From Microbacterium sp. SCN 70-27 (lineage in GTDB: Bacteria > Actinomycetota > Actinomycetes > Actinomycetales > Microbacteriaceae): a stretch of DNA of 64,000 bases. The notes below the pieces were generated by a model. It had not been told where the DNA came from and searched no databases. It saw nothing but the letters and a program-made list of their open reading frames with translations. The stretch covers positions 36,968 through 100,967 of the forward strand of contig MEEK01000016.1 in NCBI GenBank assembly GCA_001724425.1, given 5' to 3'. Position numbers and translations under genes: made by a program. Every line of letters starts with the position of its first letter. The stretch's first letter is position 1. Of the stretch, positions 1 through 64,000 are shown one piece after another.

Positions 1-60
1 ACGCGCCACCGTGAGCCCGCCGACGCCGGAGTCGAAGATCCCGATCGGCGCGTCATTCAC
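1..60 (-). CDS. murI: Glutamate racemase, N-terminal fragment
   Basis: Only the first 20 codons lie in the window; the gene runs off the left edge. Read from a GTG at 60 the peptide starts VNDAPIGIFDSGVGG, the strongly conserved racemase N-terminus in which the Asp of the IFDSGVGG motif abuts the substrate pocket. The enzyme makes D-glutamate for peptidoglycan in the cytoplasm. An in-frame GTG two codons upstream is possible, but the -10 hexamer at 69-74 lies too close to it. The gene is divergent from pncB. Confidence 0.85.
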   Translation of the reverse strand, partial: MNDAPIGIFDSGVGGLTVAR

Positions 61-68
61 GATCACCC

Positions 69-91
69 AGCCTACCCGTCGTCGCTAGAGT
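69..91. promoter_or_regulatory. Divergent murI/pncB -10 elements
   Basis: TAGGCT on the minus strand (74-69) lies 8 nt before the murI GTG, and TAGAGT on the plus strand (86-91) lies 6 nt before the pncB ATG. The whole intergenic gap is 37 bp, so both transcripts must be leaderless or nearly so. No clear -35 boxes are visible. Confidence 0.6.
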
Positions 92-97
92 GACGGC

Positions 98-1420
98 ATG
101 GCCTCGAGCGCTCTGCTGACCGACCGGTACGAACTCACGATGATCGATGCGGCGCTGCGCGACGGCACCGCCTCGCGCCCGTGCGTGTTCGAGCTGTTCG
201 GCAGACGCCTCCCGGGTGCGCGACGCTTCGGCGTCGTCGCGGGCACCGGCCGCCTGCTGCAGCAGCTGCGCGACTTCCGCTTCGACGACGACGAGCTGCG
301 CTACCTCCGCGACAACCGGGTCGTGAGCGCAGAGGCGATCTCGTTCTTCGAGGGGTACCGCTTCAGCGGGTCGATCCTCGGCTACCGCGAAGGCGAGGCG
401 TACTTCCCGGGGTCGCCGGTGCTCACGGTGGAGGGCACGTTCGCGGAGGCGGTCGTGCTCGAGACCCTCGCCCTCAGCATCCTGAACCACGACTCGGCCG
501 TCGCGAACGCCGCGGCGCGCATGTCGATCGCCGCGGGTGACCGCCCGCTCGCCGAGATGGGCTCGCGCCGCGCCGCCGAGCGGTCGGCCGTCGCCGCCGC
601 CCGTGCCGCCTACATCGCCGGGTTCGGTGCGACGAGCAACCTCGAGGCGGGCCGCGCATGGGGCATCCCCACGATGGGCACCGCCGCGCATGCGTGGACG
701 CTCCTGCACGACACGGAGGAGGACGCGTTCCGCAGCCAGATCGAGGCTCTCGGCGCCGACACGACCCTCCTCGTCGACACGTACGACATCCGCACGGGTG
801 TCGAGACGGCCGTGCGCGTCGCGGGCACGGGGCTCGGCGGCGTGCGCATCGACTCGGGCGATCTGCCGACGGTCGCCGCCGAGGTGCGTGCGCAACTCGA
901 CGGGCTCGGGGCGACGGGAACCAAGATCACCGTGACGAGCGACCTCGACGAGTTCGCGATCGCGGCGCTTGCCGCCTCCCCCGTGGATGCCTACGGCGTC
1001 GGCACCTCGGTCGTCACCGGGTCCGGGGCCCCCACGGCGGGCATGGTCTACAAGCTCGTGGCACGCCAGGGCGCCGACGGCGGCTGGGTGGGGGTCGCGA
1101 AGGCATCCACCGACAAGGCGTCCAAGGGCGGACGCAAGGCGGCGTTCCGGACACTCGAGCGCGGTACGGCGACGAGTGAGCTCATCGTCGTCTCCGACGG
1201 CTTCGAGGAGGTCGCGACGGCGGCGGAGCACCCCGACGCGCGGGCGCTGCAGGTCGTCCTCGTCGACCACGGCGAGCCCGACCCGGCGTACGAAGGCCAC
1301 GCCGGCGTCGCCCTCGCCCGCGAGCACCACGCCATGGTCCGCGAGGAGTTGCCGGTCAAGGCGCTCGCGCTCAGCAGGTCCGACCCGGCGCTGCCGACGG
1401 TCTACGTCGACGCGGAGTGA
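98..1420 (+). CDS. pncB: Nicotinate phosphoribosyltransferase
   Basis: Preiss-Handler enzyme joining nicotinate and PRPP to form nicotinate mononucleotide, with ATP hydrolysis, in the cytoplasm. The 440-aa protein shows the family hallmarks: TDRYELTM near residue 8, GTAAHAW near 194-200 whose His (about 198) is the expected phospho-acceptor, RIDSGDL near 250-256 in the PRPP-binding region, and YGVGTSVV. The length fits the bacterial/actinobacterial form. The ATG at 98 has no Shine-Dalgarno sequence but sits 6 nt after a TAGAGT -10, so a leaderless start is likely. It is monocistronic: the next gene converges on it 6 bp downstream. Confidence 0.95.
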   Translation: MASSALLTDRYELTMIDAALRDGTASRPCVFELFGRRLPGARRFGVVAGTGRLLQQLRDFRFDDDELRYLRDNRVVSAEAISFFEGYRFSGSILGYREGEAYFPGSPVLTVEGTFAEAVVLETLALSILNHDSAVANAAARMSIAAGDRPLAEMGSRRAAERSAVAAARAAYIAGFGATSNLEAGRAWGIPTMGTAAHAWTLLHDTEEDAFRSQIEALGADTTLLVDTYDIRTGVETAVRVAGTGLGGVRIDSGDLPTVAAEVRAQLDGLGATGTKITVTSDLDEFAIAALAASPVDAYGVGTSVVTGSGAPTAGMVYKLVARQGADGGWVGVAKASTDKASKGGRKAAFRTLERGTATSELIVVSDGFEEVATAAEHPDARALQVVLVDHGEPDPAYEGHAGVALAREHHAMVREELPVKALALSRSDPALPTVYVDAE

Positions 1421-1426
1421 ACCGGG

Positions 1427-1693
1427 TCAGTTCATGAGCGACTCGTAGATCTCCTTGCACGTCGGGCACACGGGGAACTTCTCCGGGTCGCGGCCGGGGG
1501 TCCACTTCTTGCCGCACAGGGCCCGTACCGGCTTTCCGGTGAGGGCGGATTCGAGGATCTTGTCCTTCTTGACGTAGTGCGAGAACCGCTCGTGATCGCC
1601 CGGCTCGATGTTCTCTTCGCGCAGGAGCTCTTCGAGCTCGCGGTCGAGGGTCAGGGTGCCGCCCTCGTCGGGGCGGTCGAGAGGGGTGCTCAT
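1427..1693 (-). CDS. DUF3039 family protein (small zinc-ribbon-like)
   Basis: 88-aa protein starting MSTPLDRPDEGG. The second half carries paired cysteines, CGKKW and CPTC, about 20 residues apart, which look like a zinc ribbon, after a basic segment YVKKDKI. This is the DUF3039 pattern, a small family found across Actinobacteria with no established function. The frame stays open further upstream, but the ATG at 1693 is preferred because TACACT (1707-1702) lies 8 nt upstream and the extension is unlike the family. It converges on pncB and is not in an operon with the ABC genes that follow. Confidence 0.85.
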   Translation of the reverse strand: MSTPLDRPDEGGTLTLDRELEELLREENIEPGDHERFSHYVKKDKILESALTGKPVRALCGKKWTPGRDPEKFPVCPTCKEIYESLMN

Positions 1694-1701
1694 GGCATCC
1701 G

Positions 1702-1707
1702 AGTGTA
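1702..1707 (-). promoter_or_regulatory. -10 element of the DUF3039 gene
   Basis: TACACT read on the minus strand, 8 nt upstream of the ATG at 1693. It implies a leaderless or very short-leader transcript. Confidence 0.45.
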
Positions 1708-1733
1708 GCCGTGGCACACCGCACGGGATCCGA

Positions 1734-3293
1734 TCAGGTCGACTCGGCGAACTCCATGAGGCGCCCACCCCGGCGCTCGAAGACCGCGCCACCGCCGAAG
1801 ATGCCGGCGAGGAGGACGACGAACCCGACGCCGAGTCCCGTCCACAAGGCCGTCCATGCGAACGACGGATCGTCGCTGAGCGCCCGCCACGCGAACCACA
1901 GCGCCGGGGCGCTCAGCGCGATCGCCCCGAGCAGGACGACGGCCTGTGCGAGCCCGCCCGACGTGCGCTGAGGCTGCTGGAACGGGCTGTCGCCGGGCCG
2001 GGAGACGGGGTACGGCAGGAGCACGGAAGACAGCGACGACAGACCCAGTCCGCAGAGGAACAGGCTCGCACAGACCCCGATCATGGCGGGCAGCATCGCC
2101 CACCGGCCATGCAGTGAGATGAGCATCGGCACGGCGACCGCGAGCACCGCGGTGCCGATGAGCGCGACCGGCACGAGGCGGCCGCTGCGATCGGATGCCC
2201 CGCGCACGGCGGCGGCCACGTGCATCCACACGGCGGAGGAGTCGTAGGCGAGGTCGTTGTGGGCGATCCACCCGAAGAAGAGCGCCATGAGGGGCGCGGG
2301 GACGAGCACGACGTACTCCGGCGGGACTCCCACGATGAGCAGCGGGACGACGACCACGGCGGCGACGACGGGCACGATGAAGAGGTCCACGAGGTGCCGC
2401 GGATCGCGCAGCCAGTAGAGGAGGCTCCGCGCCGCGATGCCTCCGCCGGGGGTGCTGGGGGTCAGGGCGAACCATCCGAGGCCCGCGCTCTCGCGCCCGG
2501 ATCCGGGCCGCTCCGTCGTCGTCAGCAGCAGTCGGACGAGCCAGAACCACAGGGCGCCGAGGCCCAGCACCGTGAGCACCGCGACGGTCACGCTCACACC
2601 CACGGACCCGTGCAGGACGGAAGCACCGGGAAGCGCCCACGCGGCGCCGAGCGGAGTCATCGCCAGGACACGCACGGCCTCTGCGAGTGCGGACGGTACC
2701 TCGCCGTCCCACTCGAGCGAGACGAAGAACACCGCGATCGGCACGGCGACGATGATGAGACCGACGAGGAGGAGTCCGCTGAGCTCGCGCGAGCGCCGCT
2801 CCCTGAGCGCCAAGCCACCGAGGGCGAGGGCGACCTTGGCCGCGAGGAGGCACGTGAGCACGCCCAGCACCAGGGCGGACACCGCGAGGGCGGGCGCCGC
2901 GCCCTGCGCCACCCACAGCATCCCCAATGCGACGGCGATGGCGGTCAACGCGATCACCGGGACGCTGATGATGCTCGCGAGGAGCGTGACGCCGGCCACC
3001 CGCGCGGGTGAGGCGCCGAAGACGGCGAAGCGTCGCGGGTCGAGCTGATCGTCGAACCCGCCGACGAGGGCTCCGGCGAAATAGCCGACGGTGAGGGCGG
3101 TTCCTGCGACGACGGTGACCGTGTACGCGACCTCGGTGTCGACGCCGCGGAGCCGCAGCGCCCCGAAGAACACCGCACCCACGGCGATCACGAGGAGCAC
3201 GAGCCCGACGATGCGCCGCGTCAATTGGCGCCCTCGGCCGCGCAGGGCTCCGACGAGGAGGTCGAATCTCAGTCGGAGAACGTGTGCAACCAC
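1734..3293 (-). CDS. ABC transporter permease (multi-span exporter subunit)
   Basis: 519-aa very hydrophobic protein with about a dozen membrane segments, for example around residues 24-45, 55-80, 100-125 and 130-155, and a strongly hydrophobic C-terminus ending RRGGRLMEFAEST. It is translated from a GTG that overlaps the 3' end of the ATPase gene by 25 bp, with GGAGG about 9 nt upstream, so the two are translationally coupled. Substrate is unknown. Pairing with an ABC-2 type ATPase suggests export. The hydrophilic loop around KTTTERPGSG-like residues is the only long soluble part. I do not recognise a closer family. Confidence 0.8.
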   Translation of the reverse strand: MVAHVLRLRFDLLVGALRGRGRQLTRRIVGLVLLVIAVGAVFFGALRLRGVDTEVAYTVTVVAGTALTVGYFAGALVGGFDDQLDPRRFAVFGASPARVAGVTLLASIISVPVIALTAIAVALGMLWVAQGAAPALAVSALVLGVLTCLLAAKVALALGGLALRERRSRELSGLLLVGLIIVAVPIAVFFVSLEWDGEVPSALAEAVRVLAMTPLGAAWALPGASVLHGSVGVSVTVAVLTVLGLGALWFWLVRLLLTTTERPGSGRESAGLGWFALTPSTPGGGIAARSLLYWLRDPRHLVDLFIVPVVAAVVVVPLLIVGVPPEYVVLVPAPLMALFFGWIAHNDLAYDSSAVWMHVAAAVRGASDRSGRLVPVALIGTAVLAVAVPMLISLHGRWAMLPAMIGVCASLFLCGLGLSSLSSVLLPYPVSRPGDSPFQQPQRTSGGLAQAVVLLGAIALSAPALWFAWRALSDDPSFAWTALWTGLGVGFVVLLAGIFGGGAVFERRGGRLMEFAEST

Positions 3294-4927
3294 TCCAGGC
3301 CCTCCACGTCGCCGCCGCTGCTGGACAGTTCGAGGAATCGCTCTTCGAGGGTCGACCCTCCGCGCACCTCGTCGAGGGTGCCCTGCGCGAGCACCTGTCC
3401 CGCCACGATCACCGCGACGCCGCTGCAGACCCGCTCGACGAGTTCCATGCCGTGACTCGACAGCACGACCGTGCCGCCGTGCTCGACGTACGCGGAGAGG
3501 ATGTCGAGGATGACCGACGACGACACGGGATCGACCGACTCGAAGGGTTCGTCGAGCACGAGGACCCGTGGCGAATGGATCATCGCACCGGCGAGCATGA
3601 TCTTCTTCGTCATGCCCGTGGAATAGTCCGAGACCTTGCGTCCGAGCGCATCGGAGAGATCGAACGCGCGGGCGAGATCCGCCGTGCGCGACTCGACGAC
3701 GGCGGAACGCAGGCCCCGCAGCACGCCGTAGTAGTACAGGAGCTGACGGCCGGTGAGGCGGTCGAAGGTGCGGAGGCGATCGGGCAGGATGCCCATCTGC
3801 CGCTTCGCCCGGGCCGGGTCCTTCGTGAGGTCGATGCCGGCGACCTCGATCGAACCGGCATCCGGGCGCAACAGGCCGGCGATGAGCGACAGCGTCGTGG
3901 TCTTGCCGGCGCCGTTCGGGCCGACGATCCCGTAGAAGGTGCCCGCCGGGACGGTGAGGTCGATCGCGTCGACGGCCGCCGTCTGACCGAACCATTTCGA
4001 GACGCCGCTGAGGCGCAGCGCCGGGACGGCGGCGTCGGCGTCGATCTCGACGTCGATCTGCGGGAGCACGTCGACGTCGTCGCCGACGTCCCCCGTTTCC
4101 TCGCGTGCGTCCGGGATATCCTCGGGCGCCGTCTCGACGACGGCCTCCGCCGCGAAGACCTCGTCCGCGATCTCAAGGGTCGCGTCGGGCTCGGGGGCCG
4201 GCTGTGCGCCGGTGCTCGAGTCGAGGACCGCTTCGGGTTCCGCGACGGGCTCAGGCTCGGGCTCGGGCTCGGGCTCAGGCTCGGGCTCAGGCTCAGGCTC
4301 GGGCTCGGGCTCGACGACCGTCGCGAGATCAGGCTCAGGCTCGACGACGATGCTGGGATCGACGGCGGCCTCGACCTCGTCGACGATCTCGGGCTCCGCC
4401 GCGGCATCCGGCACGTCCTCGGGAGCCGGCTCATCGGTCGCGACAGGCCCCGGCATCGGCGGCACGTCCGGAACCGCCGGCACATCGACGACCTCAGGGA
4501 GGGCGGGAACAGGCGGCAGGTCGACCGGCACAGCGTGCGCCTCGGCGTCGAGACGTGCCGCCGCGACGGCGGCGGGAACGGCGGGCGGCGGGGGCGGCGT
4601 GGCCTTGGCCGTGCGGGGAGCGCGCTTCTTGGCGGGCGGCGCCGGGCGCTTCGCTGGCACCGGGGGCGGCGCGGCTGCCGGAGGGGATGCCTCCTCCGCC
4701 GCCGCCGCGCTGTCCGCATCGCTTTTCGCCGGGGTCGCCGGAGCGGCCGCAGGCTTCGCCGCGGGGCGTCGCGGAGGGCGTGCCGCTCCGGGCGTGCGCT
4801 TCTTCGTCGGCGACGTCGACCGAGGGGGCGTCGCCGCGGCATCCGCTGCGCTCACCGTCGGCAACGGAGGCACCGCCGGACCGAGTCCTCCGTCCTCGTT
4901 CTGGGGGATCGGCAGAGCGGCGGTCAC
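3269..4927 (-). CDS. ABC transporter ATP-binding protein with long Pro/Ala/Glu-rich N-terminal extension
   Basis: The C-terminal 250 residues are a standard ABC ATPase: Walker A GPNGAGKTT at about 336-344, signature YSTGMTKK at about 435-442 (a divergent LSGGQ, as in many exporter ATPases), Walker B VLVLDEP at about 455-461 and the switch His in LSSHG. Residues 1 to about 300 are low complexity: Ala/Pro/Lys-rich to about 125, then acidic and Pro-rich, with eleven uninterrupted Glu-Pro pairs at 206-227. Ordinary family members begin near residue 300, so this is a very unusual head, probably an extended cytoplasmic spacer. The start is a GTG 6 nt after TAGGTT. No internal start with a good ribosome site is evident near 300. 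It is in an operon with the permease. Confidence 0.85.
   Translation of the reverse strand: MTAALPIPQNEDGGLGPAVPPLPTVSAADAAATPPRSTSPTKKRTPGAARPPRRPAAKPAAAPATPAKSDADSAAAAEEASPPAAAPPPVPAKRPAPPAKKRAPRTAKATPPPPPAVPAAVAAARLDAEAHAVPVDLPPVPALPEVVDVPAVPDVPPMPGPVATDEPAPEDVPDAAAEPEIVDEVEAAVDPSIVVEPEPDLATVVEPEPEPEPEPEPEPEPEPEPEPVAEPEAVLDSSTGAQPAPEPDATLEIADEVFAAEAVVETAPEDIPDAREETGDVGDDVDVLPQIDVEIDADAAVPALRLSGVSKWFGQTAAVDAIDLTVPAGTFYGIVGPNGAGKTTTLSLIAGLLRPDAGSIEVAGIDLTKDPARAKRQMGILPDRLRTFDRLTGRQLLYYYGVLRGLRSAVVESRTADLARAFDLSDALGRKVSDYSTGMTKKIMLAGAMIHSPRVLVLDEPFESVDPVSSSVILDILSAYVEHGGTVVLSSHGMELVERVCSGVAVIVAGQVLAQGTLDEVRGGSTLEERFLELSSSGGDVEGLEWLHTFSD
4247..4312. repeat. 11 x 6-bp tandem repeat coding for (Glu-Pro)11
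   Basis: Eleven uninterrupted hexamers of GGGCTC or AGGCTC on the plus strand, read as Glu-Pro codons by the minus-strand ATPase gene. Hexamers keep the frame, so copy-number change would only lengthen or shorten the rod-like EP segment. Confidence 0.9.
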
Positions 4928-4933
4928 CCCTCC

Positions 4934-4939
4934 AACCTA
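4934..4939 (-). promoter_or_regulatory. -10 element of the ABC operon
   Basis: TAGGTT on the minus strand, 6 nt from the GTG at 4927. The six spacer bases are GGAGGG, which looks like a ribosome site but would abut the start codon. Confidence 0.45.
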
Positions 4940-5123
4940 CCAAGCGCGACCGACTCTCGCGGGGGGTGTTGCGCGGCGCGACACATTCCCAAGAACATCA
5001 CAAAAAGGCAACAGACCGGGCACTTCCCAAGGATTCCCAGGCAGCTTCGCTACCATGTCCGACGGCACGAAGGAGTGTCCACTCGTCGAACAGACAGTGA
5101 ACAAAATCCTCCAGGAGCACCCC

Positions 5124-7034: not shown

Positions 7035-8318
7035 ATGCATCACGCACTCCCCCTCCTCATCGACTGGGTGCCCCGCCAGCGCTGGTTCGCCGCGACGGGC
7101 GGGACTGCGCGGCTGCGCCTGCTGGCGGAGATCCCCATGGACGGTGCCGCGCCGGATGCCGAGGTGTCGGTCCTGCTCATCGCCGATGATGCGACGGACC
7201 GCCCGGTCGTCTATCAGGTGCCGGTCGTCGTGCGCCACGACCCTTCGCCCGCGCCGAGCGCCGCCGTCATCGGCACGACCTCCGACGGGATGACTCTCCT
7301 CGACGGTCCGCACGATCCCGCCTTCACGAGCGCCCTGATGCGGCAGATCGCGCCGGGCGTCGAAGCCACGGCGGAGGTGCTGCGCGGCGAGCAGTCGAAC
7401 ACGTCGATCATCTTCCACCCGACCGCGGGTCGACCCGTCATCTGCAAGGTCTTCCGTCAGGTCGAGGAAGGCACGAACCCCGACATCGAGCTTCAGACAG
7501 TGCTCACGGATGCCGGGTCGAGCCACGTCCCCGCGGTGATCGGCGCCGTCACGGGATCCTGGCCGGACCCGCTCGTCGGCGCGCACATCGCCTCGGGGTC
7601 GCTTGCGTTCGCGCAGGAGTTCTTCCCCGGCGTCTCCGATGCCTGGCGCGTCGCGCTGGGCGCCGCGGCCGACGATACGGACTTCACCGCGGCCGCCGCG
7701 GACCTCGGACGGACGACGGCGGACGTCCATCGCGACCTGGCGCGGCTTCTGCCGACGCGGCCCGCGACCGGCACCGCTCGCGAGACCGTGGCCGCCGCCT
7801 GGCTGCGACGCCTCGACATCGCGCTCGTCGAAGTGCCCGCGCTCCGCCCCCATGAGGCGGCGATCCGCGCGTGCTACGCGGATGCCATGGGCGTCGACTG
7901 GCCCGACCTGCAGCGCATTCACGGCGACTATCACCTCGGGCAGGTCCTCCAGGTGCCCGGGCGCGGCTGGGTCCTCCTCGACTTCGAAGGCGAGCCGATG
8001 CGGCCCATCGGGGAGCGGCGCGAACCCGACCTCGCTCTCCGCGATATCGCGGGCATGCTGCGCTCGTTCGACTACGTCGCCGGATCGGTGCTGCAGGAGG
8101 GACCGCCGTCGGTGCCGGCCGTCCTCGCCTGGGCGGATGCCGCACGAACCGCGTTCCTCGCGGGCTACGCCGCGGCCATGCCCGGCGCCGCCGGCGGCCC
8201 GCTCCTCGCCGCACTCGAACTGGAGAAGGCCGTCTACGAAGCGATCTACGAGGCTCGCCACCGTCCCGGCTGGCTCTCGATCCCCCTCGCCGCCGTGGAG
8301 CGACTGGCCGAGGACTGA
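7035..8318 (+). CDS. mak: Maltokinase
   Basis: 427-aa protein with an N-terminal cap domain (DWVPRQRWF near residue 9, as in maltokinases) followed by an aminoglycoside-phosphotransferase-like kinase fold. The catalytic loop is IHGDYHLGQ at about 295-303 and the metal-binding motif LLDFEGEP at about 314-321, the exact pattern of Mak/Pep2. The enzyme makes maltose 1-phosphate from maltose and ATP, feeding GlgE-dependent alpha-glucan synthesis. In most actinobacteria it is next to or fused with treS, or near glgE and glgB. None of these is in the window, so here it stands alone. The product could act on a different glucoside. Confidence 0.85.
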   Translation: MHHALPLLIDWVPRQRWFAATGGTARLRLLAEIPMDGAAPDAEVSVLLIADDATDRPVVYQVPVVVRHDPSPAPSAAVIGTTSDGMTLLDGPHDPAFTSALMRQIAPGVEATAEVLRGEQSNTSIIFHPTAGRPVICKVFRQVEEGTNPDIELQTVLTDAGSSHVPAVIGAVTGSWPDPLVGAHIASGSLAFAQEFFPGVSDAWRVALGAAADDTDFTAAAADLGRTTADVHRDLARLLPTRPATGTARETVAAAWLRRLDIALVEVPALRPHEAAIRACYADAMGVDWPDLQRIHGDYHLGQVLQVPGRGWVLLDFEGEPMRPIGERREPDLALRDIAGMLRSFDYVAGSVLQEGPPSVPAVLAWADAARTAFLAGYAAAMPGAAGGPLLAALELEKAVYEAIYEARHRPGWLSIPLAAVERLAED

Positions 8319-24054: not shown

Positions 24055-26958
24055 TCACTGTCCGCTGAGCGAGAGCAGCTTCTGCACGGCCGCGGTCAGA
24101 CGCGCGTCGGCCTCGGCGAACTTCGTCAGGTCGCCGCTCTTCAGTGCCGTGTCGCGGTCGGTCATCGCCTGCTGGGCTTCCTTCAGCGCCGCCTGGAAGG
24201 CGACGTCGGAGCTGGAACCGCCCCCCGTGTCGCCCCCGCCGGGCTGACCGGACTCGCTCGGGCTCGGCGTCGGCGTGACATCGCCGTCGCCGGTGGATGC
24301 CCCCGAGTCCCCGCCGAAGAGGGCGTCCAGCGCCTCCTGCAGGGTGTCCTCGAAGGCGACCTTGTCACCGAACGCGACGAGCACCTTCCGCAGCGTCGGC
24401 AGCTTCGTCCCACTCGAGGCCTGGACGAACACGGGCTGCACGTACAGCAGACCACCGCCGACGGGGAGCGTCAGCAGATTGCCGTTGAGTACCTCGGACT
24501 GCCCCTGCTTGAGCAGGTTCAGCTGCTGCGAGATGGTCTCGTTGGAGTTGAACGTGTTCTGCACCTGGCCGGGCCCGGGGACGCTGACGTCGGCGCTGAT
24601 CTGCAGCATCCTCAGCTTCCCATAGTCGGCGGACTTCTGGCCGGCCACGGCCCCCGCGTCGGAGTCGACGGCGAGGTACCCCATCAGGACGTTCCGCGCC
24701 TCATCGCCCTCGGAGGCGGGGATGAACGACGTGAACATCGAGAACGTCGGCGACTCCTGGCCGGGCATCTTCATCGTCAGGTAGTACGGCGGCTGCAGGA
24801 TGTTGTTCTTCTGCACCGGGTCATCCGGCGTCCGCCACGCGTTGTCGCGGGCGTAGAAGGATGCCGCGTCATCGACGTGGTAGGTCCCGAGCATGGCGCG
24901 CTGCACCTTGAAGAGATCGGTCGGGTAGCGCACGTGGCTCATGAGGTCGGCGCTCATGTCCGAGACCGGCTTGAGCGTCGAGGGGTAGATCTTCTGCCAG
25001 GCCTGGAGCATCGGATCGGTCTCGTCCCACGCGTACAGCGTCACCTTGCCGGAGTAGGCGTCGACCGTCGCCTTCACCGAGTTTCGGATGTAGTTCACGT
25101 CGTCGAGAGCCACCCGCGGGTTGCTGTTCGTCGTGTCGCTGATCGCGTTGCGCAGGCTTACGAGCGACGAGTACGGGTAGTTGGAGCTCAGGGTGTAGCC
25201 GTCGACGATCCAGACGATCCGCCCGTCGACGATCGACGGGTACGGGTCGTTGTCGAGCTCCAGGTACGGTGCCACCTTCTGCACGCGCGTGATGGGGTCA
25301 CGGTCGTAGAGGATCTGCGACTTCTCGTTGATGGAGTCGGAGAAGAGGATGTCCGTCGACTGGAACTTCAGCGCGTAGATCATCCGGTTCAGGAGATTGC
25401 CGACCGCGGGGCCGCCGTCGCCCGTGAAGGTGTTCTTCGTCTGCGCGGCACCGTCGGTTCCGCGCGGGTAGTCGAGTTCGATCGGGTCGACGCCCTCGGG
25501 CGCGCCGACGATCGAGTAGGTCGGCGAGTTCTCACCGAAGTAGACCCGCGGTTCGTACTTCGTCTGGTCGGTGAGGGTGCCCGCCGTCGGGATGCCGCGC
25601 TCGAGGAACACGGGGTTCCCGTCGTTCGTGCGCTCGTTGCCCTTGGCCGCGACCAAGCCGTAGCCGTGCGTGTAGACGAGGGTCGTCGTGTACCACGATG
25701 CGGCGGCGCCGAGCTGAGCGAGGTTCAGGTCGCGTACAGACACGACGGTGTCCTGCGACTTCCCGTCGATCTGGTAGCGGTCGACGTCGAGCGGGTCGGA
25801 GAACTGGTAGTACGGACGGTACTGCTCGAGCTGACGGACCGTGGGCGGGATGATCGCGGGGTCCATGATGCGGATGGATGCCGTCGTGTCGGCATCCTCA
25901 CGCAGCTGACCCGGCTCGGCATCCGTCGCCGCCGTGAAGTCCTTCTTCTCGAGTCCGGCGATGCCGTACGCGGCCTTCGTCGCGTCGATGTTGCGCTGGT
26001 AGTAGGGGCTCTCGAGCGTCTCCTGGTTCGGTCGCACCTGGATGTTGTTGACGAGGTACGGGTACGCGACCGTCAGCACGAGGGACGACACGATGAGCAG
26101 CGCCGTTCCGATGAGCGGGAACCGCCACCGGCCGATCACCGCCGTCACGAAGAAGAGGACCGCGACGAACGCGGCGGCGATCGAGAGGATCGTGAGCCCC
26201 GGGATGATCGCGTGCACGTCGACGTAGCTCGCGCCCGTGATCCGGTCGCTCTGCGCGGTGAGCGTCTTGTACCGGTCGAGCCAGAGGCTCGCGCCCTGCA
26301 CGAGCAGGTAGAGCCCGGCGATGATCGCGAGCTGGATGCGCGCCGCCTTCGAGATGCGCAGCTCGCGCTGGCCCACGCGCACCGACCCGTACAGGTAGGA
26401 CACGAGCGCCGTGACCGCGAGGCAGACGAGCAGCACGGCGGACAGGAACCCGAGGAGCGCGCTCAGGAACGGCAGGGAGAAGAGGTAGAACCCGACGTCC
26501 ATGTTGAATTCCGGGTCGACCGTGCCGGTGTCGACGCCGTTCGCCCACAGCCACGCCGTCTCCCACTGCGCGGACGCGGCGAAGCCTGCGAAGAAGCCGA
26601 AGAACACGGGGATGCCCCACATCGCCAGACGCCGGAGCGGTTCGACGACCTCCTGGTAGTGATCCAGCTGCGAGGTGAGGCGCGCGTACACGGGCCGCAG
26701 GCGGTAGGCGAACTGGATCGCCGCGAAGACGGGGACCGCCATCGCCGCGAAGCCGATGAGGAACATCACGACGCGCGCCGTCCACTGCGTCAACAGAACG
26801 CTCGAGAATCCGAGCTGGTCGAACCACAGCCAATCGGCGAACAGGCTCGCGAAGACGAAGAAGCCCACCACGATGACCGCGATGACGGCGAGGGTGATGC
26901 CGATCGCGCGGCGGACGGGACTCGGCGTGGCCTGATTCGGCGCTGAGGTCGTGGTCAC
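24055..26958 (-). CDS. UPF0182 family large membrane protein
   Basis: 967-aa protein. Seven transmembrane helices occupy about residues 17-300 (for example ITLAVIAVIVVGFFVFASLFA near 20 and the paired helices around WGIPVFFGFFAGF), followed by a large soluble domain (about 310-860) rich in Tyr, Asn and Asp that is predicted outside the membrane, and an acidic Gly/Ser/Pro tail. This is the UPF0182/COG1615 family (Rv3193c in M. tuberculosis), function unknown. Start GTG 26958 lies 6 nt after TAGGAT. The neighbouring PDZ/Lon-like protease lies upstream on the same strand. Confidence 0.9.
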   Translation of the reverse strand: MTTTSAPNQATPSPVRRAIGITLAVIAVIVVGFFVFASLFADWLWFDQLGFSSVLLTQWTARVVMFLIGFAAMAVPVFAAIQFAYRLRPVYARLTSQLDHYQEVVEPLRRLAMWGIPVFFGFFAGFAASAQWETAWLWANGVDTGTVDPEFNMDVGFYLFSLPFLSALLGFLSAVLLVCLAVTALVSYLYGSVRVGQRELRISKAARIQLAIIAGLYLLVQGASLWLDRYKTLTAQSDRITGASYVDVHAIIPGLTILSIAAAFVAVLFFVTAVIGRWRFPLIGTALLIVSSLVLTVAYPYLVNNIQVRPNQETLESPYYQRNIDATKAAYGIAGLEKKDFTAATDAEPGQLREDADTTASIRIMDPAIIPPTVRQLEQYRPYYQFSDPLDVDRYQIDGKSQDTVVSVRDLNLAQLGAAASWYTTTLVYTHGYGLVAAKGNERTNDGNPVFLERGIPTAGTLTDQTKYEPRVYFGENSPTYSIVGAPEGVDPIELDYPRGTDGAAQTKNTFTGDGGPAVGNLLNRMIYALKFQSTDILFSDSINEKSQILYDRDPITRVQKVAPYLELDNDPYPSIVDGRIVWIVDGYTLSSNYPYSSLVSLRNAISDTTNSNPRVALDDVNYIRNSVKATVDAYSGKVTLYAWDETDPMLQAWQKIYPSTLKPVSDMSADLMSHVRYPTDLFKVQRAMLGTYHVDDAASFYARDNAWRTPDDPVQKNNILQPPYYLTMKMPGQESPTFSMFTSFIPASEGDEARNVLMGYLAVDSDAGAVAGQKSADYGKLRMLQISADVSVPGPGQVQNTFNSNETISQQLNLLKQGQSEVLNGNLLTLPVGGGLLYVQPVFVQASSGTKLPTLRKVLVAFGDKVAFEDTLQEALDALFGGDSGASTGDGDVTPTPSPSESGQPGGGDTGGGSSSDVAFQAALKEAQQAMTDRDTALKSGDLTKFAEADARLTAAVQKLLSLSGQ

Positions 26959-58141: not shown

Positions 58142-58147
58142 CGGGAG

Positions 58148-58963
58148 ATGAGCGACCGCATGCCGAAGAAGCTGTACGAACGCGAACTCAAGAGGCTGCA
58201 GTCGCAGCTCGTCGACCTGCAGGCCTGGGTGCAGGCATCCGGCGCCCGCATCATCGTCATCTTCGAAGGGCGGGATGCCGCGGGCAAGGGCTCCACGATC
58301 AGTCGGGTCTCGCAATACCTGAACCCCCGCATCACGCGCACGGTCGCCCTGCCCACCCCGACCGAGCGCGAGAAGACGGAGTGGTACTTCCAGCGCTACA
58401 TCGCCCACCTTCCGGCGGCCGGCGAGATCGTGCTGATGGACCGCTCCTGGTACAACCGCGCCGGGGTCGAGCACGTCATGGGCTACTGCAGCAACGCGGA
58501 GTACCACCGGTTCCTCCACCAGGCGCCGATCTTCGAGCGGATGCTCGTGGAGGACGGCATCCTGCTGAAGAAGTACTGGTTCAGCGTGTCGGACGTCGAG
58601 CAGGAGGCGCGGTTCCGCTCCCGCAACGACGACCCCATGCGACGGTGGAAGCTCTCCCCCAACGACGTCCTGTCGATCACGAAGTGGGAGGACTACTCGC
58701 GGGCCAAGGACACGATGTTCGTGCACACGGACATCCCCGAATCGCCGTGGTTCGAGGTCGACAACGAGGACAAGCGCCGCGGCCGGATCAACATGATCCA
58801 CCACCTGCTCGGCCAGATCCCCTACCAGAGCGTGGAGCGCGACCCGATCGAGATCCCGTCGCGCCCCGCGTCGGGCGGGTACGAGCGCCCGCCGCGCGAG
58901 CTGCAGAACTACGTGCCGGACTATGCCGCGACGATCGAGGCGCAGGCCGCCGACGACGACTGA
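58148..58963 (+). CDS. ppk2: Polyphosphate kinase 2 family protein
   Basis: 271-aa single-domain PPK2. Walker A FEGRDAAGKGS near 39-49, lid ERWYFQR-like TEWYFQRYI near 78-86, Walker B LMDRSWYNRAGVEHVMG near 97-113, and KYWFSVSDVEQ near 139-149 are as in class I/III members. It transfers phosphate between polyphosphate and nucleotides, making (d)NTP or NDP; class cannot be assigned without modelling. Converges with gltA, which lies 24 bp downstream. Confidence 0.9.
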   Translation: MSDRMPKKLYERELKRLQSQLVDLQAWVQASGARIIVIFEGRDAAGKGSTISRVSQYLNPRITRTVALPTPTEREKTEWYFQRYIAHLPAAGEIVLMDRSWYNRAGVEHVMGYCSNAEYHRFLHQAPIFERMLVEDGILLKKYWFSVSDVEQEARFRSRNDDPMRRWKLSPNDVLSITKWEDYSRAKDTMFVHTDIPESPWFEVDNEDKRRGRINMIHHLLGQIPYQSVERDPIEIPSRPASGGYERPPRELQNYVPDYAATIEAQAADDD

Positions 58964-58987
58964 CCCGCGGGGGTACGGTCCGGCCGC

Positions 58988-60280: not shown

Positions 60281-60314
60281 GAAGCCTCCTTGCGGTCGTC
60301 GGGGGATGCTCTAC

Positions 60315-60320
60315 AGCCTA
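60315..60320 (-). promoter_or_regulatory. -10 element of gltA
   Basis: TAGGCT on the minus strand; expected start near 60308. The 100-bp gap to dapC holds no other feature that I can see. Confidence 0.5.
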
Positions 60321-60380
60321 CTGGCCCTCATGGCCTACTCCGATCCACGCCAAAGGATCGCGCGATCGGTCGGAGGAAAC

Positions 60381-61496
60381 CTACCAGGCTTCGGCGCCCG
60401 ACAGCCGCGCGGCGGCCTCCGCGATGCGCTCATCGGTGGCCGTGAGCGAGAAGCGGACGTGCTCGGGGAAGCCGTCGCCGTAGAAGACGCCGGGGCCGGC
60501 GAGGATGCCGCGCTCGGCGAGGGCGCCCATCGTCGTCCAGGCATCCCTCCCCTCGGTCGCCCAGAGGTAGAGGCCGCCCTCGGAGTGGTCGATGCGGAAG
60601 CCCGCCGCCTCGAGCGCGGGCTTCAGCACGCGCCGGCGCTCCCGGTAGCGCTCGCGCTGCGCGGCGACGTGGGCGTCGTCACCGAGTGCGACGGTCATCG
60701 CCGCCTGCACGGGAGCGGGGAGCATGAGGCCGAGATGCTTGCGCGCCGTCAGCAGTCGCGCGACCAGGGCACGGTCGCCCGCGAGGAACGCGGCACGGTA
60801 GCCGGCGAGATTCGACTGCTTGGAGAGCGAGTAGACCGACAGGATGCCGGTGCGGTCCTCCCCCACGACGCGCGGGTCGAGCACGCTCGGCACGGGCTCC
60901 GAGGCCCAGGGGCCCTCCCAGCCGAGTTCGGCGTAGCATTCGTCGCTCGCGAGCACGGCACCGATCTCGCGCGCCCGCGCCGCCGCGGTACGCAGTTCGT
61001 CCACCCCGAGCACGCGGCCGTCGGGGTTCCCGGGCGAGTTGATCCAGACGAGCTTCGCGCCCTCCGGCCACTGCGCCGGGTCGTCCGCCGCGACGGGCAC
61101 GGCTCCGACGAGCTTGGCGCCGACCGCGTACGTCGGGTACGCCGCGCGCGGATGCACGACGACATCCCCCTCGCCGAGGCCCAGAAGCAGCGGCAGCAGC
61201 GCCACGAGTTCCTTCGATCCGACCGTGGGGAGCACCTCGTCGATGCCGAGGCCCGGAACGCCGCGGCGGCGCGCGTACCAGTCGACGATCGCTTCACGGA
61301 GCCCGCGCGTCCCCACCGTCTGCGGATAGGCGTGGGCGTCGGTCGCGGCGCGCAGCGCGTCGGCGACGACGGCGGGCGTCGCATCGATGGGAGACCCGAT
61401 CGAGAGGTCGACGATGCCGCCCGGGTGTTCGGCGGCGCGCGCCGCGTACGGGGCGACCGAGTCCCAGGGGTACTCGTCGAGGTCGCTGACGGCCAC
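60381..61496 (-). CDS. dapC: Succinyl-diaminopimelate aminotransferase
   Basis: 371-aa fold-type I aminotransferase. IVDLSIGSPID near 28-38 and VGSKELVALLPLLLG near 92-106 lead to INSPGNPDGR near 152-161 and the PLP lysine in YSLSKQSNLAGYRAAF near 219-234 (SLSKQSN is characteristic of actinobacterial DapC). It transaminates N-succinyl-2-amino-6-ketopimelate. GTG 61496 is 6 bp after the fdxA stop, so the two form an operon, an order conserved in actinobacteria (Rv1177-Rv1178). Confidence 0.93.
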   Translation of the reverse strand: MAVSDLDEYPWDSVAPYAARAAEHPGGIVDLSIGSPIDATPAVVADALRAATDAHAYPQTVGTRGLREAIVDWYARRRGVPGLGIDEVLPTVGSKELVALLPLLLGLGEGDVVVHPRAAYPTYAVGAKLVGAVPVAADDPAQWPEGAKLVWINSPGNPDGRVLGVDELRTAAARAREIGAVLASDECYAELGWEGPWASEPVPSVLDPRVVGEDRTGILSVYSLSKQSNLAGYRAAFLAGDRALVARLLTARKHLGLMLPAPVQAAMTVALGDDAHVAAQRERYRERRRVLKPALEAAGFRIDHSEGGLYLWATEGRDAWTTMGALAERGILAGPGVFYGDGFPEHVRFSLTATDERIAEAAARLSGAEAW

Positions 61497-61502
61497 GCGG
61501 GA

Positions 61503-61823
61503 TCAGTGTCCCTGCGGAGGGAGGGCGGCGATGATCGGGTGGTCCTTCGCGATCACACCGACCTTGGCGGCGCCGCCGGGAGACCCGATGTCATCGAAGA
61601 ACTCGACGTTGGCCGTGTAGTAGTCCTGCCACTCTTCGGGCAGGTCGTCCTCGTAGTAGATCGCCTCGACGGGGCACACGGGCTCGCAGGCGCCGCAGTC
61701 GACGCACTCGTCGGGGTGGATGTAGAGCGACCGTTCGCCTTCGTAGATGCAGTCGACGGGACATTCGTCGATGCAGGCACGGTCCTTCACATCCACGCAC
61801 GGAAGAGCGATCACATACGTCAC
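61503..61823 (-). CDS. fdxA: 7Fe ferredoxin (3Fe-4S/4Fe-4S)
   Basis: 106-aa ferredoxin. The N-terminal cluster motif CVDVKDRACIDECPVD spaces cysteines as in 7Fe ferredoxins that bind one 3Fe-4S and one 4Fe-4S cluster, and CVDCGACEPVCPVEAIY near 40-56 gives the second set. The acidic C-terminal extension is typical. It is a low-potential electron carrier. GTG 61823 is 6 nt after TAGACT. Co-operonic with dapC, with no known mechanistic link. Confidence 0.95.
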   Translation of the reverse strand: MTYVIALPCVDVKDRACIDECPVDCIYEGERSLYIHPDECVDCGACEPVCPVEAIYYEDDLPEEWQDYYTANVEFFDDIGSPGGAAKVGVIAKDHPIIAALPPQGH

Positions 61824-61827
61824 ATGG

Positions 61828-62241
61828 TCAGTCTAGTTCGTGACGAGCGGCAGGGCCGTCGGTCTTGCGCGCTGTGGCGGTCAGCGACGGCCACCCCACG
61901 ATGATCGCGGCGACGACCGGCAGCGCGAATGTCCAGATGATGCCCGTCGAGATCTCGCCCGTCGGCGGTGCGGGCACGACGACGGAGCCTCCCGGGCCCT
62001 TGCCGGAGAAGACCAGGGTCGCCACCACGGCGCCCAGGGCGCAGGCGAGCGCCGTCCAGCGATCCCCCGAAAGGAGGCGCACCGCGAGGATCAGCGCTCC
62101 CGCTCCGATGACGGCGATGACGAGCCCCAGCGGGATCGGTCCCCACATCGCGGCCTGGCCGATCGTGCCGGCGACGCCGAACACCACCCCGATGACGAGG
62201 GCGACCGCCCAGGTGCCCACGCGTGTCCACGACATTCCCAC
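61828..62241 (-). CDS. Small four-helix membrane protein
   Basis: 137-aa protein with four predicted transmembrane helices (about 8-32, 35-57, 63-81, 100-118), short loops and a basic C-terminus ending RHELD. I know no family for it. GTG 62241 lies 6 nt after TACACT; an ATG two codons in is possible. Its stop codon overlaps the fdxA -10 element, so fdxA may be transcribed both from this promoter and by read-through. Confidence 0.6.
   Translation of the reverse strand: MGMSWTRVGTWAVALVIGVVFGVAGTIGQAAMWGPIPLGLVIAVIGAGALILAVRLLSGDRWTALACALGAVVATLVFSGKGPGGSVVVPAPPTGEISTGIIWTFALPVVAAIIVGWPSLTATARKTDGPAARHELD
61830..61835 (-). promoter_or_regulatory. -10 element of fdxA-dapC, inside the upstream gene
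   Basis: TAGACT on the minus strand, 6 nt from GTG 61823, overlaps the last codons of the four-helix membrane-protein gene, whose stop codon is 61830-61828. Confidence 0.55.
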
Positions 62242-62247
62242 CCGCTC

Positions 62248-62253
62248 AGTGTA
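62248..62253 (-). promoter_or_regulatory. -10 element of the four-helix protein gene
   Basis: TACACT on the minus strand, 6 nt before GTG 62241. Confidence 0.5.
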
Positions 62254-62310
62254 GGTCCCGGAACCCTGACCGAAGTCCGGGTCGAGTGCGACGACACCGG
62301 GAGCGCACGG

Positions 62311-62625
62311 TCAGGCGGCGAGCCCCCACAGGCGAAGAAGCGCCGCAACGAGCGCGGCAGCCAGCACGACGACGAGGAACGGGGCGCGCAGAAGCAGCAG
62401 CCCCGCCGCGACGAGGACGGCGGGCACCCGGGCATCCACGACGATGTGCTGGCCTTCGCCGAGAGTCTGCACGGCGACGAGCGCCCCGAGCAGCGCGACG
62501 GTGAGGAGGTCGATGACCCGCGTCGGCGCCGGGCCTTCGAACCACGCCGCGGGAATGATGTACCCGACGGCTTTCAGCGCGAGGCAGATGACGGATGCCA
62601 GGAGGACGGCGGTCCACAGGGTCAC
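62311..62625 (-). CDS. azlD: AzlD family branched-chain amino acid exporter subunit
   Basis: 104-aa protein with three to four transmembrane helices and the AzlD-like GYIIPAAWF near 22-30 and VARVPAVLVAAG-like segments. It is the small partner of AzlC. GTG 62625 overlaps the azlC stop by 4 bp (GTGA). Together they export branched-chain or azaleucine-type amino acids by homology; the natural substrate here is unproven. Confidence 0.85.
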   Translation of the reverse strand: MTLWTAVLLASVICLALKAVGYIIPAAWFEGPAPTRVIDLLTVALLGALVAVQTLGEGQHIVVDARVPAVLVAAGLLLLRAPFLVVVLAAALVAALLRLWGLAA

Positions 62626-63338
62626 GACGGCTCCCCCGTCGTCGCGGCGGGCCGCGCCGCGCGACCGAGCCAGTTGGTCCAGCCCACGACGACGGCCACG
62701 AGTGCGGCGACGAGCACCGGCATCCCGGGCATGAGCACCGGGGTGAGGGACGCCGCGACGACGGCCGCCGCAACCCCGACGGCGATCGCCTGTCGCCGCC
62801 GGAGACGCGGCCACAGGAGCGCGAGGAAGGCCGCGGCCGCCGCGGCATCCAGCCCGTACGCGCGCGGGTCGCCGAGCACGTCGCCGAGGAGCGCGCCGAG
62901 GAGGGTCGTGAGGTTCCAGCCGATGTAGATCCCGACGCCCGTGATCCAGAAGCCGATCCGCCGCGCCCTCGGCTCCGTGTGGGCGAGGGCGACGGCCGTC
63001 GACTCGTCGATCGTGACGTGCGGGGCGAGCGCGCGCCGGAGCGGCGTCGTGCCGACGAGGGGCGCCATTCGGAGGCCGTATGCGACGTTCCGGACGCCGA
63101 GGAGCCCCGCCGACGCGATCGCCGCGGGCGCGGCCGCCAGTCCCCCGGCGCCGATCACCCCGATGAACGCGAACTGCGAGCCGCCCGTGAACATCACGAG
63201 GCTGAGGACGCACGTCTGCCACACGTCGAGCCCGGATGCCACCGACAACGCCCCGAACGAGATGCCGTACGCGCTCGTCGCGAGCACGACGCCGAGCGCT
63301 TCTCGCCGCGCGCGGCGCTCCGCGGTGTCCGTGCTCAC
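62622..63338 (-). CDS. azlC: AzlC family branched-chain amino acid exporter subunit
   Basis: 238-aa membrane protein with six to seven helices. VASGLDVWQTCVLSLVMFTGGSQFA near 33-57 (with the conserved FTGGSQFA) and NVAYGLRMAP near 82-91 are hallmarks of AzlC/YgaZ. GTG 63338 is 7 nt after TAGGCT. No adjacent Lrp-type regulator is visible. Divergent from the DUF2200 gene. Confidence 0.9.
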   Translation of the reverse strand: MSTDTAERRARREALGVVLATSAYGISFGALSVASGLDVWQTCVLSLVMFTGGSQFAFIGVIGAGGLAAAPAAIASAGLLGVRNVAYGLRMAPLVGTTPLRRALAPHVTIDESTAVALAHTEPRARRIGFWITGVGIYIGWNLTTLLGALLGDVLGDPRAYGLDAAAAAAFLALLWPRLRRRQAIAVGVAAAVVAASLTPVLMPGMPVLVAALVAVVVGWTNWLGRAARPAATTGEPS

Positions 63339-63345
63339 CCGCCCG

Positions 63346-63369
63346 AGCCTATCGAGCGGTGGGTAGTCT
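63346..63369. promoter_or_regulatory. Divergent azlC / DUF2200 promoters
   Basis: Minus-strand TAGGCT (63351-63346) is 7 nt from GTG 63338, and plus-strand TAGTCT (63364-63369) is 6 nt from ATG 63376. Only 12 bp separate the hexamers, so the two promoters must exclude each other. Confidence 0.55.
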
Positions 63370-63375
63370 CGACGC

Positions 63376-63726
63376 ATGGATCGCACAGAGCGCATCTCGC
63401 GCATGCCCGTCGCCGAGGTGTATCCGCTCTACATCAAGAAGGTCGAGCGGAAGGGACGCACGAAGGACGACGTCGATGCTGTCACGCGATGGCTGACGGG
63501 GTACACGCAGCACGAGATCGACGACCACCTCGCGGCGCGCACGTCGTTCGAGGACTTCTTCGCGGGTGCCGAGCTCAACCCGGGTGCGTCGCTCATCACC
63601 GGGATCATCTGCGGTGTCCGGGTGCAGGACATCGAGGACCCGCTGATGCAGCGGATCCGCTACCTCGACAAGCTCGTCGACGAGATCGCGAAGGGCAAGG
63701 CGCTGGAGAAGATCCTCCGGTCCTGA
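63376..63726 (+). CDS. DUF2200 family protein
   Basis: 116-aa soluble protein. The N-terminus MDRTERISRMPVAEVYPLYI, WLTGYTQHEID near 40-50, FFAGAELNPGASLITGIICG near 61-80 and DPLMQRIRYLDKLVDEIAKG match the DUF2200 pattern. Function is unknown. Monocistronic and leaderless; convergent with typA. Confidence 0.88.
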   Translation: MDRTERISRMPVAEVYPLYIKKVERKGRTKDDVDAVTRWLTGYTQHEIDDHLAARTSFEDFFAGAELNPGASLITGIICGVRVQDIEDPLMQRIRYLDKLVDEIAKGKALEKILRS

Positions 63727-63743
63727 CCCGCCCGCCGGTCAGG
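63722..63743. terminator. Inverted repeat holding convergent stop codons
   Basis: CCTGACC (63722-63728) and GGTCAGG (63737-63743) form a 7-bp stem around 8 nt. The arms contain the DUF2200 and typA stop codons. Confidence 0.5.
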
Positions 63744-64000
63744 CGTTCTGGTCCTGCTTCTTCGCCCGCGAGGCCGCACGCCCGCGCTCGGTCGCATCCA
63801 GCACGACCTTGCGGATGCGCACCTTCTCCGGCGTGACCTCGACGCATTCGTCGTCGCGCGCGAACTCGAGCGACTCCTCGAGGGTCAGCACGCGCGGCGG
63901 CGTCATCGACTCGAAGGAGTCCGACGTCGACGAACGCATGTTCGTGAGCTTCTTCTCCTTCGTGATGTTGACGTCCATGTCGTCGGCGCGCGAGTTCTCG
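63739..64000 (-). CDS. typA: Translational GTPase TypA/BipA, C-terminal fragment
   Basis: Only the last 87 codons are inside the window; the gene continues past the right edge. The peptide has MDVNITKEKKLTNMRSSTSD followed by LTLEESLEFARDDECVEVTP and IRKVVLD, the conserved C-terminal domain of BipA that contacts the ribosomal A site. The final RAASRAKKQDQNA is a typical basic tail. BipA acts in ribosome assembly and stress-dependent translation. Confidence 0.95.
   Translation of the reverse strand, partial: ENSRADDMDVNITKEKKLTNMRSSTSDSFESMTPPRVLTLEESLEFARDDECVEVTPEKVRIRKVVLDATERGRAASRAKKQDQNA

Follow-up and report, generated by a model that had tools for sequence, protein, structure and literature searches.

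The heptamer GGATGCC as a genome-wide word in a Microbacterium genome: clade dialects across Microbacteriaceae and AdnAB as a tentative reader

Why does one heptamer, GGATGCC, recur so often on both strands of a 64,000-nt stretch of the genome of Microbacterium sp. SCN 70-27 (Microbacteriaceae), and what might read it? The stretch, hereafter the window, is C16:36968-100967 of the draft assembly G000 (2,654,246 bp in 69 contigs, 95.4% complete) and has a G+C content of 71.4%. An earlier reading made from the sequence alone had estimated about 100 copies of the word and its complement GGCATCC, against some 15 predicted from base composition, and had proposed a signal acting on DNA, with a Chi-like site of the helicase-nuclease AdnAB, a nucleoid-protein site and a restriction or methylation target as candidates. 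We find that a directional pressure, exerted at the level of DNA, indifferent to orientation and specific to the clade, acts on synonymous positions to produce this word.

Abundance of the word and the level at which it is kept

The window contains 69 GGATGCC and 61 GGCATCC by exact count, so that the suspected over-representation stands, while the number of copies, 130, is larger than had been stated. Composition predicts 15.2 copies, in agreement with the earlier figure, and Markov models of order 1, 2 and 3 predict 14.2, 19.1 and 26.6; at these three orders, the ones ranked in the window, GGATGCC comes first among all 7-mers. Expectations climb to 60.7 at order 4 and 98.4 at order 5. Each of the 14 positions cited by the sequence-only reading has a copy within 0–6 bp, six of them exactly (displaced ones include 7155 for 7154, 27208 for 27204 and 31061 for 31067). 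The complete draft holds 2,810 forward and 2,809 reverse copies, 5,619 in total or one per 472 bp, taking up about 1.5% of the genome. The reversed pattern CCGTAGG occurs 243 times, a contrast that is flattered by the TAG it contains, a trinucleotide that is generally rare; in the dialect counts of other genomes, reverse-pattern controls did not serve as a null. A larger sample of G000, made up of the window and 20 further stretches (451,743 bp), contains 935 copies (461 forward, 474 reverse) versus 124 expected at Markov order 2 and 183 at order 3. The count of heptamers against Markov models that had been suggested as a check was run on this sample and, at orders 2–5, puts GGATGCC ahead of every other 7-mer counted 15 times or more. 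Strands are also balanced in the first 40 kb of contig C5 (29/25 and 26/33). Microbacteriaceae bacterium PS02067 has an AdnA protein 100% identical to the one in G000, and PS02068 and 13 Microbacterium records come next among the matches. The named Microbacteriaceae loci, 15 in number (13 from Microbacterium, four of these from M. oleivorans, and two unclassified records), are without exception enriched in GGATGCC, 2.8- to 9.1-fold over Markov 2.

To separate DNA from protein, synonymous codons were permuted inside each gene in 100 shuffles, keeping protein and codon usage; a crude caller had supplied 276 genes (330.8 kb, 73% of the G000 sample coding). These genes hold 694 copies, 344 sense and 350 antisense, versus 162.4 ± 9.9 after shuffling, with a maximum of 186, and 237 more lie in the uncalled remainder (121.9 kb, surely including missed genes). 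Observed and expected counts in the six gene-relative phases are 303/39.9, 185/6.7, 148/94.7, 26/15.1, 17/3.4 and 15/2.5. All phases exceed the shuffle, though three dominate, which agrees with the earlier statement that the word occurs in all frames and on both strands; the frame-limited codon-pair bias that had been named as the finding to contradict a DNA signal is not seen. With a z of 41, GGATGCC leads the 7-mers with a shuffle expectation of at least 3, and the runner-up (z 24) is an overlapping word. Codon choice follows the word closely. The aspartate in G-GAY-GCC is encoded by GAT in 303 of 361 cases (84%), though GAT is the rarer codon in other contexts (19–30%), with 22/73 where G precedes but another alanine codon follows, 53/284 with GCC but no preceding G, and 96/470 with neither. 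The context of the word thus changes the odds of GAT, decided at the variable fourth base, about 21-fold (303/58 versus 149/605). The alanine in G-GCN-TCC is GCA in 185 of 230 cases, against 14/85, 19/113 and 29/263 elsewhere. The excess over the synonymous shuffle, combined with codon context, implies that the force acts on DNA, and the idea of a signal on DNA rather than protein is backed by both controls. It is extremely improbable that the excess is an artefact of codon pairs, dinucleotides or composition. At 71% G+C many G+C-rich words are common, and at order 5 the excess of the window is only 130 versus 98.4, as must be when the overlapping 6-mers are themselves inflated; the word is nevertheless first-ranked through order 5 in the larger sample, survives the shuffles and is enriched in six phases. 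On the shuffles and the codon-context counts, a mutational or codon artefact was ruled out.

The word is sharply delimited: 19 of its 21 single-mismatch neighbours do not exceed the shuffle expectation by a factor of more than 1.25. Alternatives at the fourth base are depleted (GGACGCC 164/295, GGAGGCC 109/228), and transition products show a modest excess (GGATGTC 128/99, GGATGCT 48/35). Spacing is near-random, with 914 gaps of mean 460 bp and a coefficient of variation (CV) of 1.05 in the 451.7 kb; the even spacing hinted at by the window alone (CV 0.77) was dropped on this result. The variance-to-mean ratio of copies is 0.94 in 1-kb bins, 1.10 in 2-kb bins and 1.63 in 5-kb bins, hence density varies only regionally. 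Potential sites within 50 bp of another copy are filled in 74.5% of 94 cases, and at growing distance in 82.1% of 95, 84.4% of 147, 81.4% of 145, 90.1% of 91 and 84.2% of 19. The dip near a neighbour is weak (218/276 filled within 150 bp versus 270/315 beyond, Fisher p 0.039). Since filling barely depends on a neighbour, the force acts nearly independently on each site. In an alignment of AdnA and AdnB over 14 relatives, 38 of 201 copies (19%) are at the same place, versus 14.8% of all 7-mers identical; from this low positional conservation, the density of the word rather than its position seems to matter, and a position-specific function was rejected. Neighbouring copies no more than 60 bp apart form 103 pairs in G000, of which 42 are head-to-head; random orientation would give about 26. 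In six of the 42 the two words are separated by exactly 2 bases, and several belong to longer perfect hairpins. The closed genome G106, from the same genus, has 18 head-to-head pairs among 50 close ones, six of them with 2 bases between. A short tandem repeat at L036:13207-13277 carries five copies 16 bp apart.

Across the 21 stretches of G000, the ratio to the local Markov 2 expectation rises with G+C (Spearman 0.71). It is lowest in L024 (2.9-fold), which is rich in insertion sequences (IS), with a Mutator-family transposase and integrase-core transposases, and second lowest in L035 (4.6-fold), which has an HsdM methylase and a type I restriction subunit; gene content was checked for 4/4 called genes of L024 and 5/6 of L035. 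The other 19 stretches are at 5.5- to 11.0-fold. The two lowest are IS-rich or restriction-bearing, yet still enriched; a preference for core over mobile DNA, as expected of a Chi site, may exist, but density also follows G+C. The HsdM-like and HsdR-like genes lie at L035:12534-19896, in a lower-G+C stretch. Phages were represented by Min1 and 38 kb from each of three M. foliorum phages (160 kb), whose hosts are other Microbacterium species. In these four phages, GGATGCC is neither clearly enriched nor avoided, with 44 copies versus 40.9 (Markov 2) or 32.4 (Markov 3). On this lack of avoidance in the four phages, a restriction target, one of the candidates put forward before, was rejected. Weak in the IS-rich and restriction-bearing stretches and near expectation in phages, the word behaves as a signal of the host chromosome. 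The three M. foliorum phages (L179, L180 and L181) are nearly devoid of another word, GGATCC (1, 3 and 0 copies where Markov 2 predicts 12.8, 13.4 and 13.7), a pattern that restriction by present or past hosts might leave; Min1 shows no such scarcity (26 versus 27.4).

Dialects across Microbacteriaceae

Comparison with related genera, also suggested earlier, was carried out and uncovered clade dialects: relatives carry clade-specific sister words, mostly with GGAT in common. In G000 the word is GGATGCC irrespective of flank, while G106 and 13 Microbacterium loci have GGATGCCG (539 versus 60.5 and 302 versus 43.8), other right flanks being at most 2.5-fold enriched. The Microbacterium pool consists of L043-L055 only, L056 (Asticcacaulis) being left out, and L057 and L084 (<2 kb) and L103, L108 and L144 (<6 kb) were excluded from word ranking. 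Within the same genus, G164 has no excess of GGATGCC (22 versus 24.3) and 149 GGATCC sites versus 46 in 100 kb, with 6,067 in its genome of about 3.3 Mb. GGATCC is also frequent in three species of genus g35 (5,698, 6,148 and 5,368; the G034 sample has 126 versus 42.8 in 80 kb) and in G151 (2,680 in 1.9 Mb), and G126 combines two words, with 6,046 GGATGCC and 3,772 GGATCC. A third dialect, GGATGCG, is found in samples of G020 (80/14.1), G028 (72/20.8) and G046 (50/12.8), and genome-wide in G020 (3,725 in 2.8 Mb), G028 (4,904 in 4.2 Mb) and G161 (3,439 in 2.1 Mb). G005 has GCGGATC (27/5.4 in 20 kb; 1,374 in 1.4 Mb), G051 has GATCCAC (34/6.2) and GATCCGC (39/11.4), and G047 has CAGGATC (93/17.9) and GCAGGATC (60/12.7). 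Possible dialects without GGAT are GGAGGCGC in G035 (61/12.2; L099, L122, L123) and CACCGAT in G010 (72/19.3; L090, L115-L118).

G014 has a weak word only. No comparable word was found in 100 kb of G059 (best 7-mer z 6.6) or in 80 kb of G015 (best z 10, partly from repeats), and other single 20-kb samples (for example those of G012, G013, G016, G024, G031 and G045) show no clear word at that depth. In 139 genomes of the order outside Microbacteriaceae, GGATGCC is present at about 0.1–0.7 per kb. Sixteen genomes of other families of the order were sampled for words, each with at least 19.6 kb. One, G241 (L143), has CCGATGCG (26/4.1 in 20 kb), possibly a related word system, and G215 has CGGCATAC (12/0.7), perhaps a local repeat; the remaining ones have nothing comparable.

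Candidate readers of the word

GGATGCC is best described as a genome-wide recognition word, whose reader would be a sequence-specific DNA-reading factor; tentatively, and with some reserve, we take this factor to be AdnAB and the word to be its Chi equivalent. In our order of preference, a Chi-like signal for AdnAB comes first and a DNA uptake sequence second. Both AdnAB subunits are indeed encoded in the window, as had been noted (Table 1), which together with the AdnA matches in all 30 Microbacteriaceae genomes searched (17/17 genera) makes the Chi-like site suggested by the sequence-only reading conceivable, but the strand counts and the palindrome discussed below speak against it. The set of 30 includes G063 and G179, in place of which the ComEC, methyltransferase and pilin sets have G121 and G015.

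Table 1. Copies of the word and AdnAB genes in the window.
Feature	Position	Strand	Remarks
GGATGCC starts, part 1	985, 2193, 3787, 4685, 6168, 7154, 7508, 7880, 8135, 9682, 9703, 9841, 12292, 13281, 13560, 14538, 15039, 16224, 16374, 17946, 19597, 20121, 20739, 21218, 21317	+	exact count
GGATGCC starts, part 2	22645, 23912, 24295, 24859, 25590, 25876, 26610, 27204, 27594, 29264, 30987, 31067, 32121, 32219, 34498, 34841, 35503, 36274, 37286, 38287, 39168, 39970, 45310, 46379, 47116	+	exact count
GGATGCC starts, part 3	47617, 48495, 48588, 49075, 50223, 51029, 52092, 53146, 54063, 54546, 55312, 56518, 57433, 58273, 60070, 60503, 60842, 62593, 63234	+	exact count
GGCATCC starts, part 1	662, 1102, 1694, 3857, 4403, 4838, 6005, 6211, 8367, 8505, 8760, 9948, 10525, 12011, 13683, 14043, 16521, 17374, 18679, 20203, 21732, 23038, 25891, 25918, 28073, 28878, 29073, 30436, 31713, 32330	-	exact count
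GGCATCC starts, part 2	33238, 33708, 33873, 35240, 35582, 37196, 38065, 39250, 40234, 40846, 41618, 42576, 43956, 44758, 44839, 45714, 46996, 47296, 48439, 51342, 53116, 55139, 56444, 56909, 57209, 58234, 58556, 60540, 62431, 62719, 62844	-	exact count
Example copy, cited exactly by the sequence-only reading	985..991	+	
Example copy, cited as 7155	7154..7160	+	
Head-to-head pair	25876..25897		GGATGCC at 25876, GGCATCC at 25891
AdnA, UvrD-type helicase-nuclease subunit, 1059 aa	37747..40926	-	PDB matches 7sjr chain A (5e-93), 9np6_A and 6ppj_A, presumably mycobacterial AdnA
AdnB, partner helicase-nuclease subunit, 1116 aa	34436..37786	-	PDB matches 6ppu, 6ppr and 7sjr chain B (E down to 7.7e-136), which we take to be mycobacterial AdnB

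In the proposed mechanism, most Microbacteriaceae would share a reader that drifts in specificity between clades, and every clade would load its chromosome with the corresponding form of the word. AdnAB, which resects double-strand breaks, would read it; the fast-evolving AdnA subunit, equivalent to AddB, would pause there, and the pause would convert destructive degradation of self DNA into recombination. As a Chi equivalent, the word would thereby tell self DNA from invading DNA. We prefer AdnAB because it is found throughout the set, works on the DNA of the chromosome and has a subunit, the equivalent of the Chi scanner, that evolves faster than a methyltransferase compared with it; a self mark that is weaker in foreign DNA is also what such an enzyme would use. 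Of all that was tested, AdnAB and ComEC alone match the words in breadth of distribution. AdnA of G106 is 72.1, 69.6 and 57.1% identical to that of G291, G305 and G164 (frames extracted by tblastn), versus 84, 79 and 70% for the conserved methyltransferase treated below, and by these identities AdnA diverges fast, and faster than that enzyme. PMC4824097 (2016) describes AdnA as the counterpart of AddB, the Chi scanner, and gives regulation of AdnAB by Chi as unknown, to which PMC5030088 brings nothing further. A word length of 6–8, as in known Chi sites, also counts for a Chi-like role. The wider proposal, that GGATGCC and its sister words are together the Chi equivalents of AdnAB and form an unpolarised, clade-specific and sometimes palindromic recombination code evolving along with AdnA, of a kind not known from actinobacteria, is possible but doubtful.

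Several observations weigh against AdnAB as the reader. Leading-strand polarity was sought in 20 stretches of 20 kb of the closed G106 genome (3,371,690 bp), which contain 315 forward and 348 reverse copies (663), with 20 placements of the origin. It was not found: the best placement gives 54.1%, random orientation having 52.9% as its median and 55.1% as its 95th percentile, so the leading/lagging skew suggested as a check does not go beyond random in this relative. Polarity is called a hallmark of Chi in PMC8022716 and PMC5443536, the latter dealing with the asymmetry of Chi in Caulobacter, although the former allows that unpolarised motifs may work too. The GGATCC dialect is palindromic, whereas Chi sites are directional; a single genus contains more than one dialect, a quicker turnover than that of Chi in enterobacteria; and most potential sites near another copy are nonetheless filled, which a function of one site per kilobase does not ask for. 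G059 has AdnA (41% identity) but no comparable word in 100 kb, and most of the 16 sampled genomes of other families, in which AdnAB was not searched, show none either. A count that speaks neither for nor against AdnAB is that of AdnA columns separating 11 GGATGCC genomes from 6 GGATCC genomes: there are 8, versus 2, 7, 3, 3 and 5 when G164 trades places with a congener in five swaps. Because polarity is missing, one dialect is a palindrome and sites fill nearly independently, our confidence in AdnAB goes no further than tentative. The most lopsided G106 stretch is L001 (G106:C1:1-20000; 9 forward, 29 reverse), which has 4 of the 6 DnaA-box matches of the sample.

A DNA uptake sequence (DUS) would arise if competent cells preferred DNA bearing the word, so that biased uptake and recombination filled the genome and dialects isolated clades. 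This explanation, which we consider rather unlikely, fits the dialects and hairpin pairs best. The Neisseriaceae (PMC3630211) offer parallels in dialects built mostly around a common core (CTG there, GGAT here), in two dialects within one genome, as in G126, and in head-to-head hairpin pairs, a similar genome occupancy and the lack of strand polarity. Two Microbacteriaceae, Rhodoluna lacicola and Aurantimicrobium photophilum, are naturally transformable according to PMC11577799, which reports transformation with plasmid DNA and with linear constructs carrying homologous flanks of about 500 bp. ComEC is present in 30/30 genomes, but these include the wordless G015, and G059, putatively Aurantimicrobium minutum and thus of a genus with a transformable member, has no comparable word. 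The type IV prepilin signature (PF07963) occurs in only 7/30 genomes, G000 included, and was not found in the strong GGATGCC genomes G106, G277, G291 and G057; Flp pilin (PF04964) occurs in 1/30. No conserved ComP-like receptor was found in the 30 genomes, where divergent pilins could be missed. Dependence of filling on neighbours is weak, and the hairpin pairs may have a passive origin, since a word in one arm of a hairpin brings about the word in the other. Three clustered prepilin-type signatures lie at G000:C37:17056-18972, and only 6 of the other 29 genomes have the signature.

The highly iterated palindrome HIP1 (GCGATCGC) of cyanobacteria is a hyper-abundant exact word of coding and non-coding DNA with no settled function. 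By analogy, a methyltransferase or a sequence-biased, Vsr-like repair could keep GGATGCC through a bias at each site, with no role in recombination. We think this unlikely, even though it is the best fit to both the near-independent filling and the near-random spacing, and the GATC-containing dialects GGATCC, GCGGATC and GCAGGATC resemble HIP1. A conserved PF01555 methyltransferase has a clear orthologue in 24/30 genomes (nearest NCBIfam models PRK11524 and CcrM, both below cut-off); the copy in G106 (L178:74-961) is a 295-aa adenine-type enzyme, 61–84% identical over the best segment to those of 23 other Microbacteriaceae, including the 0.9-Mb G015. No clear orthologue was seen in G000, G005, G051, G100, G121 or G151, yet words tested against models occur in G000, G005 and G051, and GGATGCG and GGATCC counts are high in G100 and G151; conversely, G015 and G059 encode the enzyme but yielded no comparable word. 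Its presence in the 30 genomes (G000 being the 95.4% complete draft) does not track the words, and it was rejected as their driver; the methylation target proposed earlier fails for this enzyme, to which alone the result applies. A different PF01555 match, of 653 aa, is present in G000. Phages, which may stay too briefly, are not clearly enriched, and GGACGCC is depleted, yet GGATGTC and GGATGCT are in excess. A binding site for an abundant nucleoid-associated protein, its benefit adding up over sites, is less probable again. The additive, orientation-free and chromosome-wide distribution would suit it, as would occupancy almost independent of neighbours, and the palindromic GGATCC would fit a dimer, but no candidate protein was identified, none having been searched for, and the sharpness of the word is, to our knowledge, unusual for such proteins.

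Relation to known systems

With precise candidate words at hand, for which the natural dialects serve as internal controls, the question of Chi recognition by AdnAB becomes testable with purified enzyme. If instead the competence machinery reads the word, these would be the first uptake dialects outside Proteobacteria, where we know of none. Either way, the word biases codon choice genome-wide, which matters for codon-usage analysis and gene design in Microbacteriaceae. Among the matches listed in the open literature, there is no report of the word or of Microbacteriaceae dialects, while papers beyond those listed may mention them.

The polar sequences KOPS and AIMS, which act for FtsK, have over-representation in common with GGATGCC, but polarity defines them and was not found for GGATGCC in G106. 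Like HIP1, GGATGCC is equally hyper-abundant and exact in coding and non-coding DNA; unlike HIP1, it is no palindrome, lacks GATC and has dialects that differ between species. The Chi sites of RecBCD and AddAB (GCTGGTGG in E. coli, AGCGG in B. subtilis and, putatively, GCGGTGGT in Caulobacter) share with it shortness, exactness, over-representation and, apparently, a lower frequency in foreign DNA, and all genomes tested encode a helicase-nuclease from the superfamily of RecBCD and AddAB. GGATGCC differs in being unpolarised in G106, in having dialects within one genus, one of them palindromic, and in belonging with an enzyme, AdnAB, not known to respond to Chi. It is also about ten times denser than E. 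coli Chi, given as one per 5 kb in PMC8022716, which covers Chi candidates in Proteobacteria. To the Neisseriaceae DUS, as presented in PMC3630211, it is likened by family-wide dialects with a mostly shared core, mixed dialects, hairpin pairs, occupancy and transformable family members. The differences are that the word here has 7 bases versus 10–12 in DUS, that the hosts are actinobacteria, that no conserved pilin receptor was found and that G059, a relative from a genus putatively with a transformable member, is without a comparable word. Claiming membership neither among Chi sites, whose polarity was not found here, nor among DUS, we conclude that GGATGCC belongs with the selected, highly iterated words of genomes.

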